Below, piece after piece: positions 10,346-21,296 of a stretch of 32,449 nt of DNA (within the stretch, counting starts at the first letter, position 1; every line of letters starts with the position of its first letter). Below the pieces are notes generated by a model. It was given only the letters and a program-made list of their open reading frames with translations, searched no databases and was not told the DNA's origin. This stretch comes from Peptococcaceae bacterium (GTDB lineage: Bacteria; Bacillota; UBA994): contig JAGXSS010000021.1 of assembly GCA_018334055.1 (NCBI GenBank), positions 1-32,449 on the forward strand, in the 5' to 3' direction. Made by a program: the position numbers and the translations under genes.

Positions 10346-10368
10346 AAATATAGAGTGCAATTAAATAG

Positions 10369-10466
10369 CGAGCGGGGGAGCTGGAGAGGCCGGCTGAGAT
10401 AGAGAACCTAGGAGTTCTTTGACCCTTTACCTGATCTGGGTAATGCCAGCGGAGGGAAGTGCCATA
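10369..10466 (+). promoter_or_regulatory. TPP riboswitch (THI element)
   Basis: The conserved blocks are all present in order: GCGGGGGAGC, GGCTGAGA near 10391, GACCCTTTACCTGATCTGGG near 10421-10440 and TAATGCCAGCGGAGGGAAG at 10441-10459. It precedes a terminator and five thiamin genes. TPP binding is expected to favour the terminator and shut off thiW-thiD-thiM-thiE-thiC. Confidence 0.97.
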
Positions 10467-10475
10467 GTTTATTTT

Positions 10476-14800: not shown

Positions 14801-14829
14801 TTGACAATCGTTATCAGTTGTACTAACAT
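14801..14829 (+). promoter_or_regulatory. Promoter of the nitrogenase-like/importer operon
   Basis: TTGACA (14801-14806, perfect consensus), a 17-bp spacer and TAACAT (14824-14829). A Fur-type operator covers the -35 and spacer. The first gene starts about 90 bp downstream. Confidence 0.82.
14802..14816. promoter_or_regulatory. Fur box overlapping the promoter
   Basis: TGACAATCGTTATCA matches the 7-1-7 Fur consensus TGATAATnATTATCA at 12 of 14 informative bases. It overlaps the -35 element and spacer, so bound Fur would block RNA polymerase when iron is plentiful. It resembles the Zur (TCGTAATnATTACGA) and PerR (TTATAATnATTATAA) consensus less well. Confidence 0.8.
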
Positions 14830-14867
14830 AAAAAGCGCTGGATGCGAATATTTTTTTACATGTGCAT

Positions 14868-14882
14868 TGAGAACGACTATCT
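14868..14882. promoter_or_regulatory. Second, weaker Fur-box-like site in the leader
   Basis: TGAGAACGACTATCT matches the 7-1-7 consensus at 10 of 14 bases and runs on into TTATCATT, about 40 bp after the -10 box. It could be a secondary Fur site. Confidence 0.45.
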
Positions 14883-14926
14883 TTATCATTACAGGGCAGG
14901 GCCCAAATTCTTCGGGGAGGTATGGC

Positions 14927-15694
14927 ATGAGAAAAATTGCGATCTACGGCAAGGGCGGTATAGGCAAGTCGACAACTACATCAAATTTGGCGGCGGCGCT
15001 GGCGGTGCAGGGCGTGCGAGTTATGCAAGTGGGCTGTGACCCCAAGGCCGATTCCACCAAAATTCTTATGGGAGGGAAGAACATACCCACAGTCCTCGAC
15101 AGTATTAAGGCCAAGAAAGACGCCTTGAGTTTGCAGGACATTGTCTTTGCCGGATATGGCGGAGTAATGTGCGTAGAATCCGGCGGACCTCCGCCGGGGG
15201 TGGGGTGTGCCGGGCGCGGCATCATCTCGGCTTTTGAGAAGCTGGCCGAACTGAAGGCCTTTGAAACTCTGCAGCCGGACATAGTCCTGTACGACGTCTT
15301 GGGTGATGTGGTGTGCGGTGGCTTTGCCATGCCGCTGCGCGAAGGGTATGCCCGAGAAGTATACATAGTCACTTCCGGTGAGATGATGTCGCTTTATGCT
15401 GCCAGCAATATCAGCAGCGCGGTCAAGCGGCTCTCGGGCATAGGCTACGCCAGGCTTGGCGGTCTCATCCTCAACGCCAAGGGAGTGGCCGACGAGGTCG
15501 GCCTAGTCGAAAAAGCGGCGACAGAAATAGGCACCTCCATCGTGACCTACATACCGCGTGATGCGCGCGTTCAGTCGGCCGAAAACATGGGCCAGACAGT
15601 AATAGAGGCCTATGGAGTAGGGGGCATGGGGGAGATTTATATGGATTTAGCCAATAAAATCCTCGCTCAGACGCACATAAAGAAAGCAATCTGA
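14927..15694 (+). CDS. NifH-like ATP-dependent reductase (uncharacterised nitrogenase-like family)
   Basis: A 255-residue homodimer-type FeS ATPase of the NifH/BchL/CfbC superfamily. It has Walker A GKGGIGKSTTTSN at residues 9-20, switch region GCDPKADSTK at 36-45, the two dimer-bridging cluster cysteines Cys94 (GVGCAGRG) and Cys130 (DVVCGGFAMP), and Arg97 at the position of the ADP-ribosylated arginine of NifH. It should use ATP to drive electrons into the NifDK-like partner encoded 3 kb downstream. ATG 14927 is preferred to upstream in-frame starts because GGGGAGG at 14915-14921 precedes it and the sequence starts directly with the beta strand MRKIAIYGKGG. It is the first gene of a Fur-box operon with an ABC importer. 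A real nitrogenase is unlikely (see partner genes). Confidence 0.93.
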   Translation: MRKIAIYGKGGIGKSTTTSNLAAALAVQGVRVMQVGCDPKADSTKILMGGKNIPTVLDSIKAKKDALSLQDIVFAGYGGVMCVESGGPPPGVGCAGRGIISAFEKLAELKAFETLQPDIVLYDVLGDVVCGGFAMPLREGYAREVYIVTSGEMMSLYAASNISSAVKRLSGIGYARLGGLILNAKGVADEVGLVEKAATEIGTSIVTYIPRDARVQSAENMGQTVIEAYGVGGMGEIYMDLANKILAQTHIKKAI

Positions 15695-15710: not shown

Positions 15711-16910
15711 GTGAAGAAGTATCAGCAGTTTTTAGCCTTTGTCCTCGTGGTAGTCTTTAGTATCGGCATGATGGGTTGCACCGCGCAGCAGGAGGTGGCT
15801 ACCCCCAAGCAGCCGCCCGCGGCTGTGTCCCCAGCACCCGTATCTCCCGCTACGCCCGTTGCCCCCGCTGTGCCGGTTGCGCCAACTGCGCCGCTTGCTC
15901 CCAGCACTATAGCGGCAGTGACCCCTCCCGTAACGCCTGCCCCACCGGTCGTGGTCCCACCGGCGCCCCGACCAATCGCCCAAGCTGCGCCGGCTCCAAC
16001 CGCCACACCGGCAGTCCAGCCTGCAGCTCCCGTGGGGGGCGCCCCAGTCACGGCAGAACCGTGGCGCCCACGTGAATTCACCTTGCGTGAAGCGGACGGT
16101 ACGGTGCTTACCTTTCCCAAGGCTCCCGAGCGCGTGGTCATCTTATCGAGAAGTATCATCTTTATTCTGCACGGTCTTGGCATAACCCCGGTGGGCATTC
16201 ATACCACGGCTTTGCCCTTGCCCGCGGGCCTGGAGGCGGTACCTCGCCTGGGCATGCCAATGAACCCCAACATTGAACAACTGGTGGCTTTACGGCCGGA
16301 ACTCATCATCCTGAGCTCACGCTTCAAGCCTACCTTGGGTCCCATCTTCACTCGGCACAATCTGCCCGCCTTTTTCGTGGAAAACCAAAGCTATGAAGAC
16401 ACCATCAGAGCCATCGAGATGTTTGGGCGGGCTTTTGACCGCGTGCCCGCTGCAACCCGCATTATTCTCGACATGCGCGCGCGCGAGCATCGCTTAGATG
16501 CAACCCTTCGCGGCAAGACTCCACCTCGCGTCATGGTGCTTTTTGGCTCCGGCGGCAATTTCTTTTTTGCCACCAACAATTCCTTTGTGGGTGACTTGGT
16601 AAGAGAGGTGGGCGCGATCAATGTGGTCGAAGGAGCACGCCTCGCCGAGCAAATGCCAGGGTATGTGCCGCTCAGTATAGAGATGGCAGTCGCCTTAAAT
16701 CCTGATGTAATTTTGCGCATTTCCCATGGCAACAGAGCGGAAACGCGTACTCAATTTGAACGGGAGTTCCGCGAAAATCCTATTTGGCAGAATACCACCG
16801 CCGTGCGCCGGGGGCGCCTCTATGACCTCGACAGCAATCTATTCGACCCCAATCCCGGGCTGGCCGTCATCGATGCCCTCGAAGAAGTAGCGCGTATTTT
16901 ATACAAGTAA
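15711..16910 (+). CDS. Metal-chelate-type ABC substrate-binding lipoprotein
   Basis: A 399-residue lipoprotein. A KKYQQFLAFVLVVVFSIGMMGC signal ends in a lipobox with Cys23. About 90 residues of Pro/Ala/Val/Thr-rich, low-complexity linker follow (roughly 27-115). The rest is a FepB/BtuF-type (TroA-like) binding domain: EFTLREADGTVLTFPKAPERVVILS, LGITPVGI, NIEQLVALRPELIILSS and the C-terminal NPGLAVIDALEEVARIL. Such proteins bind ferric siderophores, heme or cobalamin. The GTG at 15711 follows GGTGGTAAGGTG. It lies 16 bp after the NifH-like gene and before the matching permease. The ligand is undetermined; operon control points to an iron compound. Confidence 0.92.
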   Translation: MKKYQQFLAFVLVVVFSIGMMGCTAQQEVATPKQPPAAVSPAPVSPATPVAPAVPVAPTAPLAPSTIAAVTPPVTPAPPVVVPPAPRPIAQAAPAPTATPAVQPAAPVGGAPVTAEPWRPREFTLREADGTVLTFPKAPERVVILSRSIIFILHGLGITPVGIHTTALPLPAGLEAVPRLGMPMNPNIEQLVALRPELIILSSRFKPTLGPIFTRHNLPAFFVENQSYEDTIRAIEMFGRAFDRVPAATRIILDMRAREHRLDATLRGKTPPRVMVLFGSGGNFFFATNNSFVGDLVREVGAINVVEGARLAEQMPGYVPLSIEMAVALNPDVILRISHGNRAETRTQFEREFRENPIWQNTTAVRRGRLYDLDSNLFDPNPGLAVIDALEEVARILYK

Positions 16911-16953: not shown

Positions 16954-17958
16954 ATGAAAAAAGACAAAAAATTGCAGCGTATCATCCTGTTCCCCGTATT
17001 GCTCATGGCATTAGGCCTGTCCTTTATGATTGCGGTGCGCTGGGGGAGCGTGGAGTTTTCGAACCAGCAAATTATCGGCCTGTTCTTTGGTTACGGCGAG
17101 GAAGATGCGGTCTTGCGCACCATAATCTACAATATCCGTCTTCCCCGCACCCTGACCGCCCTCATGGTTGGTGCGAACTTGGCCATGTCAGGTGCCCTGC
17201 TCCAAGCGGTGATGCGCAATGAGTTGGCTGACCCAGGCCTTACGGGCATCTCCACTGGGGCAGCTTTGGGGGCGGTGACGGTCATGCTGGTGTTTCCGGC
17301 TTACGGCGCCTTGGTGCCTGTGGTAGCATTTTCGGGGGCTGCCATCGCTTGCGCGATAGTGTTCGCCCTGTCCTGGAAACGCGGGGTTGACCCCATCAGG
17401 ATTGTGTTGGCGGGGGTGGCAGTCAACGCGGTGCTTGGAGGAGGCACCGGCCTCCTCTCTATTCTGTACAGTGATCGCATTCAAGGCGTGCTGATGTGGC
17501 TCAACGGCACTCTGTCAGGCCGCAGCTGGCAGCATGTTGAAGTGTTGTTCCCCTATTCGGTGCTCGGCCTGGTTGCTGCGGGGCTGTGCATCAAGGCGGC
17601 CAACCTCCTGCAGCTTGGGGATGAGATGGCGAAGAATCTGGGCCTTAAGGTGCACTTAGCGCGCATCGCCCTCTCCGCCGTAGCCGCCTTCATTGCCGCC
17701 ATTTCTGTTTCTATGGTCGGGCTAATCGGCTTCGTAGGGCTCATCATTCCCCATATCACGCGGCTCTTGGTGGGTTCTGATTATCGGTACCTCTTGCCCG
17801 GCTCAGCGCTGCTTGGAGCGGTGTTCCTACTCTCCGCCGATACTGCCGCACGCATGGTTTTTTCTCCCATCGAATTGCCGGTGGGTATTATCATGGCCAT
17901 TATCGGCGGACCATTCTTTTTGTACCTGCTAAGAAAAGGGGGTAAGTACAAAGTATGA
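16954..17958 (+). CDS. FecCD/BtuC-type ABC permease
   Basis: A 334-residue permease with about ten membrane helices. Family hallmarks: IIYNIRLPRTLTALMVGANLAMSGALLQAVMRNELADPGLTGISTGAALGAV, WLNGTLSGRSWQHV, LGDEMAKNLGLKVHLARI and VGLIGFVGLIIPHITRLLVGSDYRYLLPGSALLGAVFLLSAD. This is the channel of importers for ferric siderophores, heme or B12. ATG 16954 is chosen; an in-frame TTG at 16924 would add ten polar residues without a better ribosome site. The end overlaps the ATPase start by 4 bp (ATGA). Confidence 0.94.
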   Translation: MKKDKKLQRIILFPVLLMALGLSFMIAVRWGSVEFSNQQIIGLFFGYGEEDAVLRTIIYNIRLPRTLTALMVGANLAMSGALLQAVMRNELADPGLTGISTGAALGAVTVMLVFPAYGALVPVVAFSGAAIACAIVFALSWKRGVDPIRIVLAGVAVNAVLGGGTGLLSILYSDRIQGVLMWLNGTLSGRSWQHVEVLFPYSVLGLVAAGLCIKAANLLQLGDEMAKNLGLKVHLARIALSAVAAFIAAISVSMVGLIGFVGLIIPHITRLLVGSDYRYLLPGSALLGAVFLLSADTAARMVFSPIELPVGIIMAIIGGPFFLYLLRKGGKYKV

Positions 17959-18743
17959 TGCTCTGTGGCTGCAATTTACGAGTAGGTTATGACGGGCGCA
18001 TAGTTATTGACAATATGGACATTAGCATTAACCGTGGTGAGATTGTGACCTTGATTGGCCCTAATGGTTCCGGCAAGACCACGGCGTTAAAAGCAATATC
18101 CCGCCTTCTCGACTGCGCCGGAGGGGTCGTCCTTTTAGATGGCAAAAACATACATCGCATGAGCACGCGCGAGGTGGCCAAAAAAATGGCTGTGCTACCG
18201 CAAAGTCAAATAATGCCTCCTGACTTTTCAGTGCTAGAGCTAGTGCGCCATGGGCGCATGCCCCATCTCAAGTGGTATGAAGTCAGTGGTAAAGAAGACG
18301 AGGACATTGTCGAGTGGGCTATTCAAGCGGCGAAGCTAGAGCACTTAGCGCACCGACCGGTCTGCACTCTGTCGGGTGGCGAGAGGCAAAAGGCCTGGAT
18401 TGCCCTAGCCTTAGCGCAAAAGCCGGAAGTACTGCTGCTTGACGAGCCGACCACGTTCTTAGATATTTGCCACCAAATAGAGGTCATGGAGATGGTGCAG
18501 AGTCTCAACAAAAAACTCGGCATCACCGTAGTCATGGTCCTGCACGACCTTAACCAGGCGGCCAGCCATAGCAACCGCATTGTGGTTATTAAAGGGGGGC
18601 GCGTTGTGAAAGAGGGTGCGCCGCAAGAAGTAATTACACCGGAGCTGTTGCGTGATGTCTACCGGATAGAAGCCGAGGTCTATATCAACAAGACCAATGG
18701 TTGCCCGGCGATTATGCCGCTTGGGCTGGCCAAGTTCGCATGA
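17955..18743 (+). CDS. FecE/BtuD-type ABC ATPase
   Basis: A 262-residue ATPase with Walker A GPNGSGKTT, Q-loop VLPQSQ, signature LSGGERQKAWIALALAQ, Walker B VLLLDEPTTFLDI and H-loop VLHDLNQA. It is the energiser for the FecCD-type permease. Its gene is wedged between the permease and the NifD-like gene with ATGA overlaps on both sides, so importer and enzyme are translationally tied. A second ATG at 17958 is an equally possible start. Confidence 0.95.
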   Translation: MMLCGCNLRVGYDGRIVIDNMDISINRGEIVTLIGPNGSGKTTALKAISRLLDCAGGVVLLDGKNIHRMSTREVAKKMAVLPQSQIMPPDFSVLELVRHGRMPHLKWYEVSGKEDEDIVEWAIQAAKLEHLAHRPVCTLSGGERQKAWIALALAQKPEVLLLDEPTTFLDICHQIEVMEMVQSLNKKLGITVVMVLHDLNQAASHSNRIVVIKGGRVVKEGAPQEVITPELLRDVYRIEAEVYINKTNGCPAIMPLGLAKFA

Positions 18744-20074
18744 AAGAAGGGATAAGTAGGTTGGAACGCTTACCAGAACTAGCGCGCCTAAAAAAGTTGT
18801 CGCAAATCAGCACAAAAAAAGACCTCTTGCAGTTGTCGCACGCCCTCTTCCCGGGCACGCACTGCCCACTCTTTGGGGTGGCATTAACTGCCTCGCTCAT
18901 TGATGACTTAATCATGCTCATTGTGGGGACTGATGAGTGTGCCTACTACACCAAGCGCTTCACGATGAATAGAGAGGCTCAAGGGGAAGGGCGTGACAAT
19001 GTCTTTTCGTTTGCCATGAGTCAGCACGATATCGTTTTCGGCGCAGGAGAGAAAGTGCGGGATGCCATCTTGCACCTAGACCGCACCTACCATCCCCAAG
19101 CCATTCTCATCGTCACCACCTGTGTCCCCGAAATTACCGGCGAAGATTTCGTGTCGTTTGCCGCTACTCTTAAAGACAGCGTAGAGGCCGCAGTAGCGGT
19201 AGTGCGCACCGAGCATTTTCGCTGTAACAACCACATGCCCGGCATTGAGCGCACGCTGCTCGCCCTCAGTGAATTCATGCAACCGCAGCAGACTGTCGCT
19301 AATTCGGTCAATATACTGGGGCATCGCCAGCACGGCATAGAGAAGACAGAGCTTTTTAGGCTTTTGTCGGCCAGGGGTGTATCGATCAACCTTTCTCTAC
19401 CCTCAAAATCCAATATAGATTCTATTCGCCGAGCACCCCAAGCCGCACTGAATATTGTCACCGATTTTACCGCCCTGCCACTCGCCCAAAGAATGCAAAA
19501 AGCCTTTGGGATAGATTATGTATACTTTGAAAAGTACGCTTCACCCCATAGAATCTCGGCCGCCTATCGCGAGTTGGGGCAAAAACTTGAACTAGATATT
19601 GAGAGCACGGTGGCCGAGTGGCACCGGCAAGCCGAAGAAGCCATCGCCACATCGGCCCAAGACCTCGTCGGCAAAAGCTTCATCTACGGCAATTCTCCGC
19701 TTATGGCCTTCGAGGGCGCCGCGTTTTTTACAGCTCTGGGCATGAAGCCAATAATAATTTCGGCGCGCGATGTCTACGAGGGCGACCGAGCGCATATTGA
19801 TGAAATTCTGGCGCGGGGCGAGGACCCGTGGGTCTCGATGGTGGCCAATATCGCGCCTCTACAGCGACTGTACCCGGTGCTCAAGCCAGACATCTATATC
19901 GGTCACGAAAACCCTCACACTCTCGCCCGCCTTGGTGTCGCCCACCTCGTTCTCGATTCCGTAGCGTTTAAGCTTGGGTTTGAGCTTCCGGTAGCAATTG
20001 TTAAGATGGCGGCCGAGGCTCTGCAGACCACGAGTAAGACTAAGACCGAGGGGGTGCGCCATGTCGCTCTATAA
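18740..20074 (+). CDS. NifD-like subunit of nitrogenase-like reductase
   Basis: A 444-residue member of the nitrogenase component 1 superfamily. It keeps three cysteines in the P-cluster positions: Cys42 (GTHCPLFG), Cys67 (GTDECAYY) and Cys128 (VTTCVPEITGEDF). DIVFGAGEKVRDAI also matches NifD/BchN-type proteins. The regions holding the FeMo-cofactor ligands of NifD lack them: IVTDFTALPLAQRM has no cysteine and the LVLDSVAFKLGFELP end has no histidine. It therefore resembles chlorophyll/F430-type reductases in lacking FeMo-co. ATG 18740 overlaps the ATPase stop (ATGA); the frame upstream is only the antecedent gene out of phase. It is probably a heterotetramer with the next gene product, reduced by the NifH-like protein. 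The substrate is unknown. Confidence 0.9.
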   Translation: MKEGISRLERLPELARLKKLSQISTKKDLLQLSHALFPGTHCPLFGVALTASLIDDLIMLIVGTDECAYYTKRFTMNREAQGEGRDNVFSFAMSQHDIVFGAGEKVRDAILHLDRTYHPQAILIVTTCVPEITGEDFVSFAATLKDSVEAAVAVVRTEHFRCNNHMPGIERTLLALSEFMQPQQTVANSVNILGHRQHGIEKTELFRLLSARGVSINLSLPSKSNIDSIRRAPQAALNIVTDFTALPLAQRMQKAFGIDYVYFEKYASPHRISAAYRELGQKLELDIESTVAEWHRQAEEAIATSAQDLVGKSFIYGNSPLMAFEGAAFFTALGMKPIIISARDVYEGDRAHIDEILARGEDPWVSMVANIAPLQRLYPVLKPDIYIGHENPHTLARLGVAHLVLDSVAFKLGFELPVAIVKMAAEALQTTSKTKTEGVRHVAL

Positions 20075-21296
20075 ATTCTTACCGCTACCTTCTGACCGCA
20101 TGGGTGTTCTCTGGGCGCTCTCGTCCCTCAAGGGCGCTTGCATTCTCGAGTACGGCCCGGCTGGCACAACTCATTATGGTATCGAGTCGTATGGCAAGCT
20201 AAATATGGATTTGGCGGCGTCACTTTTTACGACCGGCATTGATGAAGAAGATGTCATCATGGGTGACTCCGGACGCCTTGCCGCCACCTTGCTGGAGATA
20301 GACCAAAGAGGCGAGTTTGCTCACATTTTTGTGGTGGCCTCATCGGTCTCCTCAATCATTGGCACAGACATCGTGGCTATCTGCAAAGAAGTGCAGCCGA
20401 GCTGCCGGGCAAAGCTACACTGTTTTGCCGGTGGGGGTCTAAAGGGCAGCTACAATTTGGGTGTGCGCGAAGTATTGACCACCTTGGCCCGGGATGTTGT
20501 CGCCCCCGGCGAGGTGCGGGATTCGATGCTTTACAACATAATTGGCAGCAACGCCGATTGCTATAATTTTGCTTCGGACATTGCCGAAATAGAACGATTA
20601 ATGCAAAGTTGCTTCGGATTGAAGTCTCACGCCGTCTTTACGACAGGCTCCTCTATCGACCAGATCTCCGGCGCCGCCACCAGTGGCTTCAATCTTGTGG
20701 TCAGGGCCGAAGGGCTAGAGGCAGCCAAGATTCTCAAAGAAAAATATGGGCAGGACTACTACTATGGGCTACCCTATGGGTATCAAGGAACGCAGCAGTG
20801 GCTGAGAGGGATTGCCAGTAAGTTTGGGCTGCAAATTATGGCCCCTTACCTAGATAGCGAAACCCAAAACCAAAAAAACCATCTTCTCAGGTGGCGATTT
20901 CTGCGGCGGGGGAGCAAGCCATTGACGGCGGCTATTGCCGGCAACTTTGACTTGGTTCTCAACCTGAGCCGATTTTTAGAGCAAGAACTAGACATCAAGA
21001 CCGTAGCCGCCTTTGTCAATCATGAGCGGAGCAGTGAGCACATTGTTCTCGACGAGGCGCAAAAAGACTTAATTAAATTTAATCCCAGTGAGCAAGCAAA
21101 ATTAGACGCCCTGACAGCGGCCGACCCAGACATCATTTTAGCGGATGCAGTATTGCTTAAGATGTACCAGAAAGGAAAAGTGCGACTGCAAGTGTCGCAC
21201 CCCAATCTACAGCGGATACTACTGACGCGCCACCAGCCCTTGGTCGGGTTTAACGGCGCCGGCTCCATTCTAGAAGAAATTGTAAACAGATTGTAG
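20061..21296 (+). CDS. NifK-like subunit of nitrogenase-like reductase
   Basis: A 411-residue component 1 superfamily protein, shorter than NifK (about 520). The positions of the three NifK P-cluster cysteines are not cysteine: the first falls near SDRMG, the second is Thr36 in YGPAGTTHYG (the place of the BchB aspartate ligand), and the third is Ser95 in VVASSVSSIIGTD. Cys27 is close in sequence but aligns elsewhere. Other superfamily features are present: CFAGGGLKGSYNLGV, IIGSNADCYNFASDI, YGLPYGYQGTQQWL and the C-terminal HQPLVGFNGAGSILEEI. ATG 20061 overlaps the NifD-like gene by 14 bp. An earlier in-frame start at 19998 gives a 21-residue arginine-rich leader that looks like shadow coding. 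It ends the operon; no clear terminator follows. Confidence 0.88.
   Translation: MSLYKFLPLPSDRMGVLWALSSLKGACILEYGPAGTTHYGIESYGKLNMDLAASLFTTGIDEEDVIMGDSGRLAATLLEIDQRGEFAHIFVVASSVSSIIGTDIVAICKEVQPSCRAKLHCFAGGGLKGSYNLGVREVLTTLARDVVAPGEVRDSMLYNIIGSNADCYNFASDIAEIERLMQSCFGLKSHAVFTTGSSIDQISGAATSGFNLVVRAEGLEAAKILKEKYGQDYYYGLPYGYQGTQQWLRGIASKFGLQIMAPYLDSETQNQKNHLLRWRFLRRGSKPLTAAIAGNFDLVLNLSRFLEQELDIKTVAAFVNHERSSEHIVLDEAQKDLIKFNPSEQAKLDALTAADPDIILADAVLLKMYQKGKVRLQVSHPNLQRILLTRHQPLVGFNGAGSILEEIVNRL

Follow-up and report, generated by a model that had tools for sequence, protein, structure and literature searches.

A 32,449-nucleotide stretch of DNA from a Peptococcaceae bacterium (contig JAGXSS010000021.1, analyzed as a whole and called the window here) contains an operon in which the genes of an ABC importer lie between the gene of a NifH-like protein and those of two NifD/NifK-like subunits, and it raises the question of which regulator controls such an operon and which compound its nitrogenase-like enzyme acts upon. 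A sequence-only reading of this DNA had placed a 12/14 Fur-like site over the -35 element and spacer of a TTGACA-17-TAACAT promoter and a weaker 10/14 site in the leader. Mismatches were counted against the 7-1-7 consensus TGATAATNATTATCA, the form in which Baichoo and Helmann reportedly described the Fur operator in 2002. Both sites were reproduced with their scores: the first, TGACAATCGTTATCA, at its original coordinates and with two mismatches, and the second, TGAGAACGACTATCT, as shown in Table 1. The description of the latter as a single site was incomplete, as a further 7-1-7 match, CGACTATCTTTATCA, had been overlooked, which overlaps TGAGAACGACTATCT at an offset of 6 bp. An overlap with this offset is the layout typical of classic double Fur operators, and the leader element would be better described as a weak double box.

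Table 1. Predicted features of the promoter region and operon in the window
Feature	Position	Strand	Basis
Promoter P1: -35 TTGACA 14801-14806, 17-nt spacer, -10 TAACAT 14824-14829	14801..14829	+	10/12
Fur box 1 (predicted), TGACAATCGTTATCA	14802..14816	.	12/14 to 7-1-7; covers -35 and spacer of P1
Possible second promoter, TTTACA-17-TATCTT	14855..14883	+	9/12, weak; -10 inside Fur box 2
Fur box 2 (predicted), double: TGAGAACGACTATCT 14868-14882 and CGACTATCTTTATCA 14874-14888	14868..14888	.	10/14 each
NifH-like ATPase/[4Fe-4S] reductase (H)	14927..15694	+	Pfam Fer4_NifH 318.9 bits; start ATG at 14927, preceded by GGGGAGG
IsdE-like heme-binding lipoprotein (predicted)	15711..16910	+	TIGR03659 IsdE 203.7 bits, next best 57
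FecCD-type permease (IsdF/HmuU-like)	16954..17958	+	Pfam FecCD 319.9 bits
ABC ATPase (FecE/HmuV/FhuC type)	17955..18743	+	profile matches
NifD/NifE-like subunit (D)	18737..20074	+	Oxidored_nitro 208.3 bits; Cys C43, C68, C129
NifK/NifN-like subunit (K)	20058..21296	+	best TM-scores of the fold to DPOR subunit B

At up to three mismatches, 0.59 matches are expected in the whole 32-kb window and two were observed, and site 1 is the only window site with two mismatches. Within the 200 nt before the NifH-like gene, an equally good site arose in 1 of 1000 dinucleotide shuffles. Further, the window was scored with a matrix to which each orthologous operon, the window excepted, contributed its best box; such a matrix depends circularly on the consensus, but not on the window. 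Over ~32,400 window positions, this matrix ranked site 1 first (16.6), site 2 second (9.65), and the overlapping match at 14874 fourth (7.8). The score of site 1 was reached in 1 of 20 shuffled windows; that of site 2 was often reached somewhere in the shuffled windows, and taken alone site 2 is at chance level in 32 kb. It is nevertheless credible because it lies near site 1 and because a genome of the same genus (L027) has a matching two-site layout, with the sites 71 bp apart.

Conservation upstream of orthologous operons, which the sequence-only reading had suggested as a check and whose absence it had named as a refutation, was assessed in 53 loci obtained by scanning the named genomes with a six-member NifD-like alignment; the gene block conserved across the loci is H-E-F-V-D-K. 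Clade A, which includes the window, comprises loci with a NifD-like identity of 43-75%, and its larger sister clade B, mostly from gut Clostridia and Phascolarctobacterium, those with about 37-45%. In clade A, a Fur-type box was found before every operon with readable upstream DNA. Of the 16 operon 5' regions counted, which include that of the window and to which some loci contribute two, 13 had a box with two mismatches or fewer and the other 3 one with three mismatches, compared with 3 of 85 among the control genes of these loci (Fisher P about 3e-11, a value that overstates independence because the clade-A species are related). Two of the three control genes with a box have their promoter region in common with the operon. 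Where the operon starts further upstream, with a DUF2325 gene (L065, L066, and L108) or the IsdE gene (L063), the box is likewise found ahead of that first gene. Several clade-A members have a TTGACA-type promoter that ends a few bases before the box, and in the window the promoter lies under it; both arrangements fit repression. Relative to the best promoter of the region, the box of several relatives is positioned over it or just downstream. That an AT-rich promoter should have produced the motif by chance is therefore hardly conceivable; the bare 10/14 of site 2 lends something to this reading, but the ortholog conservation and the shuffle controls have already largely refuted it. In clade B, on the other hand, just 2 of 32 upstream regions had a box with two mismatches or fewer, and we therefore rejected clade B as part of the same Fur regulon; an AraC-type regulator is often encoded divergently upstream. 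As separate observations, a small DUF2325-type protein is encoded by the first gene behind the Fur box at L065:6034-6342, L066:5521-5799, and L108:5740-6015, and also in L049, and a YgbA_NO family gene (L063:6935-7237) lies immediately upstream of the NifH-like gene of this relative.

The host genome encodes two Fur-family proteins, one with Fur as its best model (C68) and one PerR-like (L002; C53). For the former (L001:1453-1917), the best NCBIfam match is the model "ferric iron uptake transcriptional regulator", and its score of 170.6 bits does not reach the Bacillus-type cut-off of 220. A third Fur-family protein was not found in the host genome, and we conclude from this pair that there is no separate Zur. 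A pattern search of the genome for Fur-type boxes returned 20 sites with two mismatches or fewer, against 4 for the reversed pattern. The top-scoring box of the genome is overlapped by a second one just ahead of an Fbp-type Fe(III) ABC operon, and another overlapping pair precedes feo, the Fe(II) transporter genes (the Fbp, Feo, and NitT/TauT names used here come partly from reading translations). Because of these Fbp- and Feo-type targets, the host Fur would be expected to read this motif.

The sequence-only reading had itself named binding by Zur or PerR only as the outcome that would speak against it. In such a case the operon would answer a signal other than iron, peroxide for PerR or zinc for Zur, and the host does encode a PerR, whose boxes are similar in kind: Fur and PerR boxes have six of seven bases per half in common, and PerR boxes are not bound by Fur (PMC3293774). 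However, the ortholog boxes keep a TG start and a CA end, their matrix has a strong preference for G at position 2 and for C at position 14 and does not agree with the TTATAAT half-sites of PerR type, a separate Zur is lacking beside the one Fur and one PerR, and the same motif precedes iron transporters. Binding of the sites by PerR or Zur is thus very improbable, and control of the operon by Fur is, on these sequence features, highly probable. The sites resemble the 7-1-7 Fur operator (reviewed in PMC11353095) in their two half-sites, their TG...CA ends, the 6-bp-offset overlap, and their position at or beside a promoter and before iron-uptake genes; they differ in being weaker (12/14 and 10/14) than the strongest boxes known from E. 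coli or B. subtilis. Elsewhere in the host genome, clustered boxes precede two NitT/TauT-type ABC operons, at 4747-4828 of L117 (G000:C66) and 6822-6842 of L118 (G000:C109); one includes a 222-aa protein like part of an Fe-hydrogenase and the other a CobW-like GTPase, and both operons are candidates for unusual iron importers.

With regard to the imported compound, the predicted binding lipoprotein of the window is IsdE-like; its score with the IsdE model lies below the equivalog cut-off of 298.65, which the Hathewaya protein (L067) passes at 357.7 bits. Its best PDB matches are 5joq (Listeria Lmo2184) and 2q8p (S. aureus IsdE). The heme ligands of IsdE are Met78 and His229, and both predicted ligands are present in the window protein, as Met (codon at 16260) and His (codon at 16725). 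In HtsA, the ligands are Met79 and His229 (PMC4684392). Among the clade-A binding proteins, a His occupies the IsdE/HtsA His229 position in 14 of 14 and the Met ligand is found in 9 of 13, with K, R, or A in its place in the remaining 4, whereas the clade-B binding protein is of a different type with neither heme ligand. NEAT and sortase genes adjoin the operon in L049, L063, L064 (the cultured Alkaliphilus transvaalensis), and L065, and NEAT genes do so in L066 and L067. Overall, these results make it probable, from the predicted proteins, that heme is the compound imported. The sequence-only reading had regarded the Fur sites as the main evidence for a role in iron homeostasis; the link to iron stands, but the sites are not alone in supporting it, as the IsdE-type protein and the NEAT/sortase genes of relatives are equally strong and, moreover, narrow the link to heme iron.

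The operon thus invites comparison with the Fur-regulated IsdC-IsdE-IsdF-FhuC-SrtB system of Staphylococcus and Listeria (PMC12670364). Common to both are an IsdE-like protein with the heme His and mostly the Met, a FecCD permease, an ATPase, and Fur boxes, as well as, in relatives of the window, NEAT and sortase genes. In contrast, neither IsdG nor IsdI was recognized in the block, which has the nitrogenase-like H and DK genes in that place. A NEAT protein was not detected in the genome or family of the window, in a search whose control genomes also gave no signal; this gap in heme capture outside the membrane counts against the heme reading in this genome. We rejected a HutW-type or CobN/HmuS-type heme degrader in the host, where HutW matches lay far below the cut-off and CobN/HmuS was not found. 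Cobalamin transport was likewise rejected: the leader had no match to a cobalamin riboswitch or any other RNA in an Rfam search, even at an E of 1, and BtuF is a poor match to the binding protein (30.6 bits). Two observations are added here: a TPP riboswitch (62.6 bits) precedes the thiamine genes of the window at 10364-10475 (+), and the IsdE-like protein of one relative (L106/L029:953-2239) carries an extra N-terminal domain of copper-amine-oxidase-N type, likely a cell-surface module.

The permease and the ATPase do not discriminate between siderophore, B12, and heme models, and the ligand of a Fur-controlled iron importer could in principle be a ferric siderophore, which the enzyme would reduce or break to free its iron. 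In line with this, the locus of a more distant homolog (L051, G348), whose NifD identity is 30%, carries siderophore-type ABC importer genes, an AraC-like gene, and HDK, and a Fur-type box that matches TGATAATGATTATCA perfectly lies at its position 1172, in reversed orientation, at the start of the AraC-like gene; L051 is possibly a siderophore version of the same arrangement. For the window operon, however, a siderophore is improbable: the clade-A binding protein is by far most like IsdE and keeps the heme His, NEAT and sortase genes adjoin the operon in relatives, and the fold of the K subunit is like that of DPOR.

Heme thus remains the preferred ligand, and the next question is what the enzyme encoded beside the importer would act upon. 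The best NCBIfam match of the NifH-like protein is CfbC (339, below the CfbC cut-off). The three Cys of the D subunit are invariant in 48 homologs; a cluster-type set of Cys ligands matching that of D was not found in K. AlphaFold models of both subunits are confident (pLDDT 88.5 for D and 84.8 for K). That of D has a general likeness to nitrogenase subunits, and that of K is like NifN and DPOR BchB, with its best TM-scores (0.84-0.85) to the latter. By sequence, D and K score highest among the named families with NifE, and with the BchB, BchN, and CfbD models the window subunits fall far below the curated cut-offs. The ligands of the FeMo-cofactor are absent from the nitrogenase-like subunits; the NifD model gives 77 bits against a cut-off of 653, and in a motif comparison the LNLVQC of NifD corresponds to LNIVTD in the D subunit. 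Nitrogen fixation was rejected on these grounds, the cofactor Cys motif of NifD being absent and the NifD/NifK scores far below cut-off. Sulfur assimilation of the Mar/Isr type was rejected as well, as nothing sulfur-related recurs in the neighborhoods of the loci; the Isr system, as described, includes a radical-SAM gene and importers of the SsuABC type. The original assignment of the system to iron homeostasis and not to nitrogen or sulfur metabolism is supported.

DPOR, COR, and CfbCD are known enzymes that all reduce tetrapyrroles, and for that reason heme is a natural guess for the substrate, although still a guess. The window enzyme shares with them a NifH-like ATPase with D and K subunits, three Cys on D, a K subunit nearest to BchB, and the lack of FeMo-cofactor ligands. 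It differs in full-length scores far below the family cut-offs, in that the Asp ligand of BchB is not recognizable, and in an operon tied to an importer and not to pigment or F430 synthesis.

Genes of this kind have been noted before. NifE/NifN-like pairs in which the E-like subunit has three Cys and the N-like subunit has none, encoded downstream of a NifH and an ABC ATPase gene, were reported from C. botulinum (CLM_0808) and Alkaliphilus oremlandii (Clos_0313) by Dos Santos et al. in 2012 (PMC3464626), who gave no function but proposed a coupling of metal transport to cofactor assembly; their text mentions neither siderophore nor iron transport and makes no link to Fur or heme. These genes and the window enzyme very likely belong to the same family. 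Following that proposal, heme import could be Fur-controlled while the enzyme leaves heme alone and serves to assemble or repair a metal cofactor or to recycle the imported metal; that the subunits score highest with NifE among the named families points the same way. This alternative survives better than that of a siderophore but is still unlikely: no partner enzyme that uses a cofactor recurs in the neighborhoods of the 53 loci, a cofactor Cys ligand is lacking, and conservation is limited to the H-E-F-V-D-K block.

The computed results are the Fur-type sites with their conservation, a Fur in the host, the heme-ligand residues, and the gene content; from these we infer Fur binding, repression, heme as the ligand, and, above all, a reaction on heme. 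In iron-sufficient cells, Fe(II)-Fur would occupy the box over the -35 element and spacer, and more weakly also the leader double box, so that RNA polymerase is blocked; under iron shortage, the operon would be switched on to give an Isd-type importer (IsdE-like protein, FecCD permease, and ATPase) and a two-component reductase made of H plus DK. This reductase may then act on imported heme in the cytoplasm with ATP-driven low-potential electrons and a [4Fe-4S] DK protein, like DPOR, COR, and CfbCD, and would release the iron from heme without oxygen, taking the place of the heme oxygenases IsdG and IsdI. Overall, a Fur operator pair, an Isd-type heme importer, and a nitrogenase-like reductase acting on heme are together a likely description of the locus. 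For the enzymatic step, we put the chance that the enzyme reductively processes heme at about even, and give the same even weight to the fuller proposal that the Fur-regulated H and DK proteins break down or demetallate imported heme anaerobically, replacing heme oxygenase in an Isd-type system. Because clade B has the same HDK, a binding protein without the heme ligands, and often an AraC-type regulator, the enzyme might also have another substrate or a shared role that does not concern heme.

Oxygen-independent release of heme iron alongside heme importers, as proposed for the window, is also the task of the anaerobilin synthases ChuW/HutW/HmuW and the de-chelatase HmuS, and a flavodoxin-type gene occurs in both kinds of locus. 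These enzymes (radical SAM and CobN-type, respectively), in contrast, are unrelated to the window enzyme, and neither kind exceeds its cut-off in the host. If the proposal is correct, the operon would provide a further, unrelated anaerobic route to heme iron beside them, explain how strict anaerobes could draw iron from heme without oxygen, and add a new class of substrate to the nitrogenase superfamily, extending nitrogenase-type chemistry to heme breakdown. Many members of this superfamily lack an assigned function, and for this one there are now a predicted regulator (Fur), a partner importer whose heme ligands are predicted, and a substrate that can be tested. In the literature outside subscription papers, we found no description joining nitrogenase-like enzymes to heme, siderophore, Isd, or NEAT and no paper linking this nitrogenase-like family to Fur or heme, and the word "nitrogenase" is absent from the text of a 2025 review of bacterial heme use. 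The family itself is not new, its linkage to an ABC transporter having been noted in 2012; its assignment to Fur and heme appears to be.

Two further groups of loci deserve mention. In the clade-A relative L049 (G311), two large CobN-type proteins (G311:C1:2737103-2744125) are encoded ~12 kb from the NEAT/sortase/nitrogenase-like locus, a point against the main reading; they could be B12 enzymes or, like HmuS, de-chelatases. In Phascolarctobacterium, the clade-B operon lies beside TonB receptors (L074:12732-15510, L084:13659-15683, and L089:603-2906); the L089 receptor best matches a heme/hemoglobin receptor model, and L074 also has a ChaN-type heme-binding protein. Because of these neighbors, heme or a related ligand may be involved in clade B as well.
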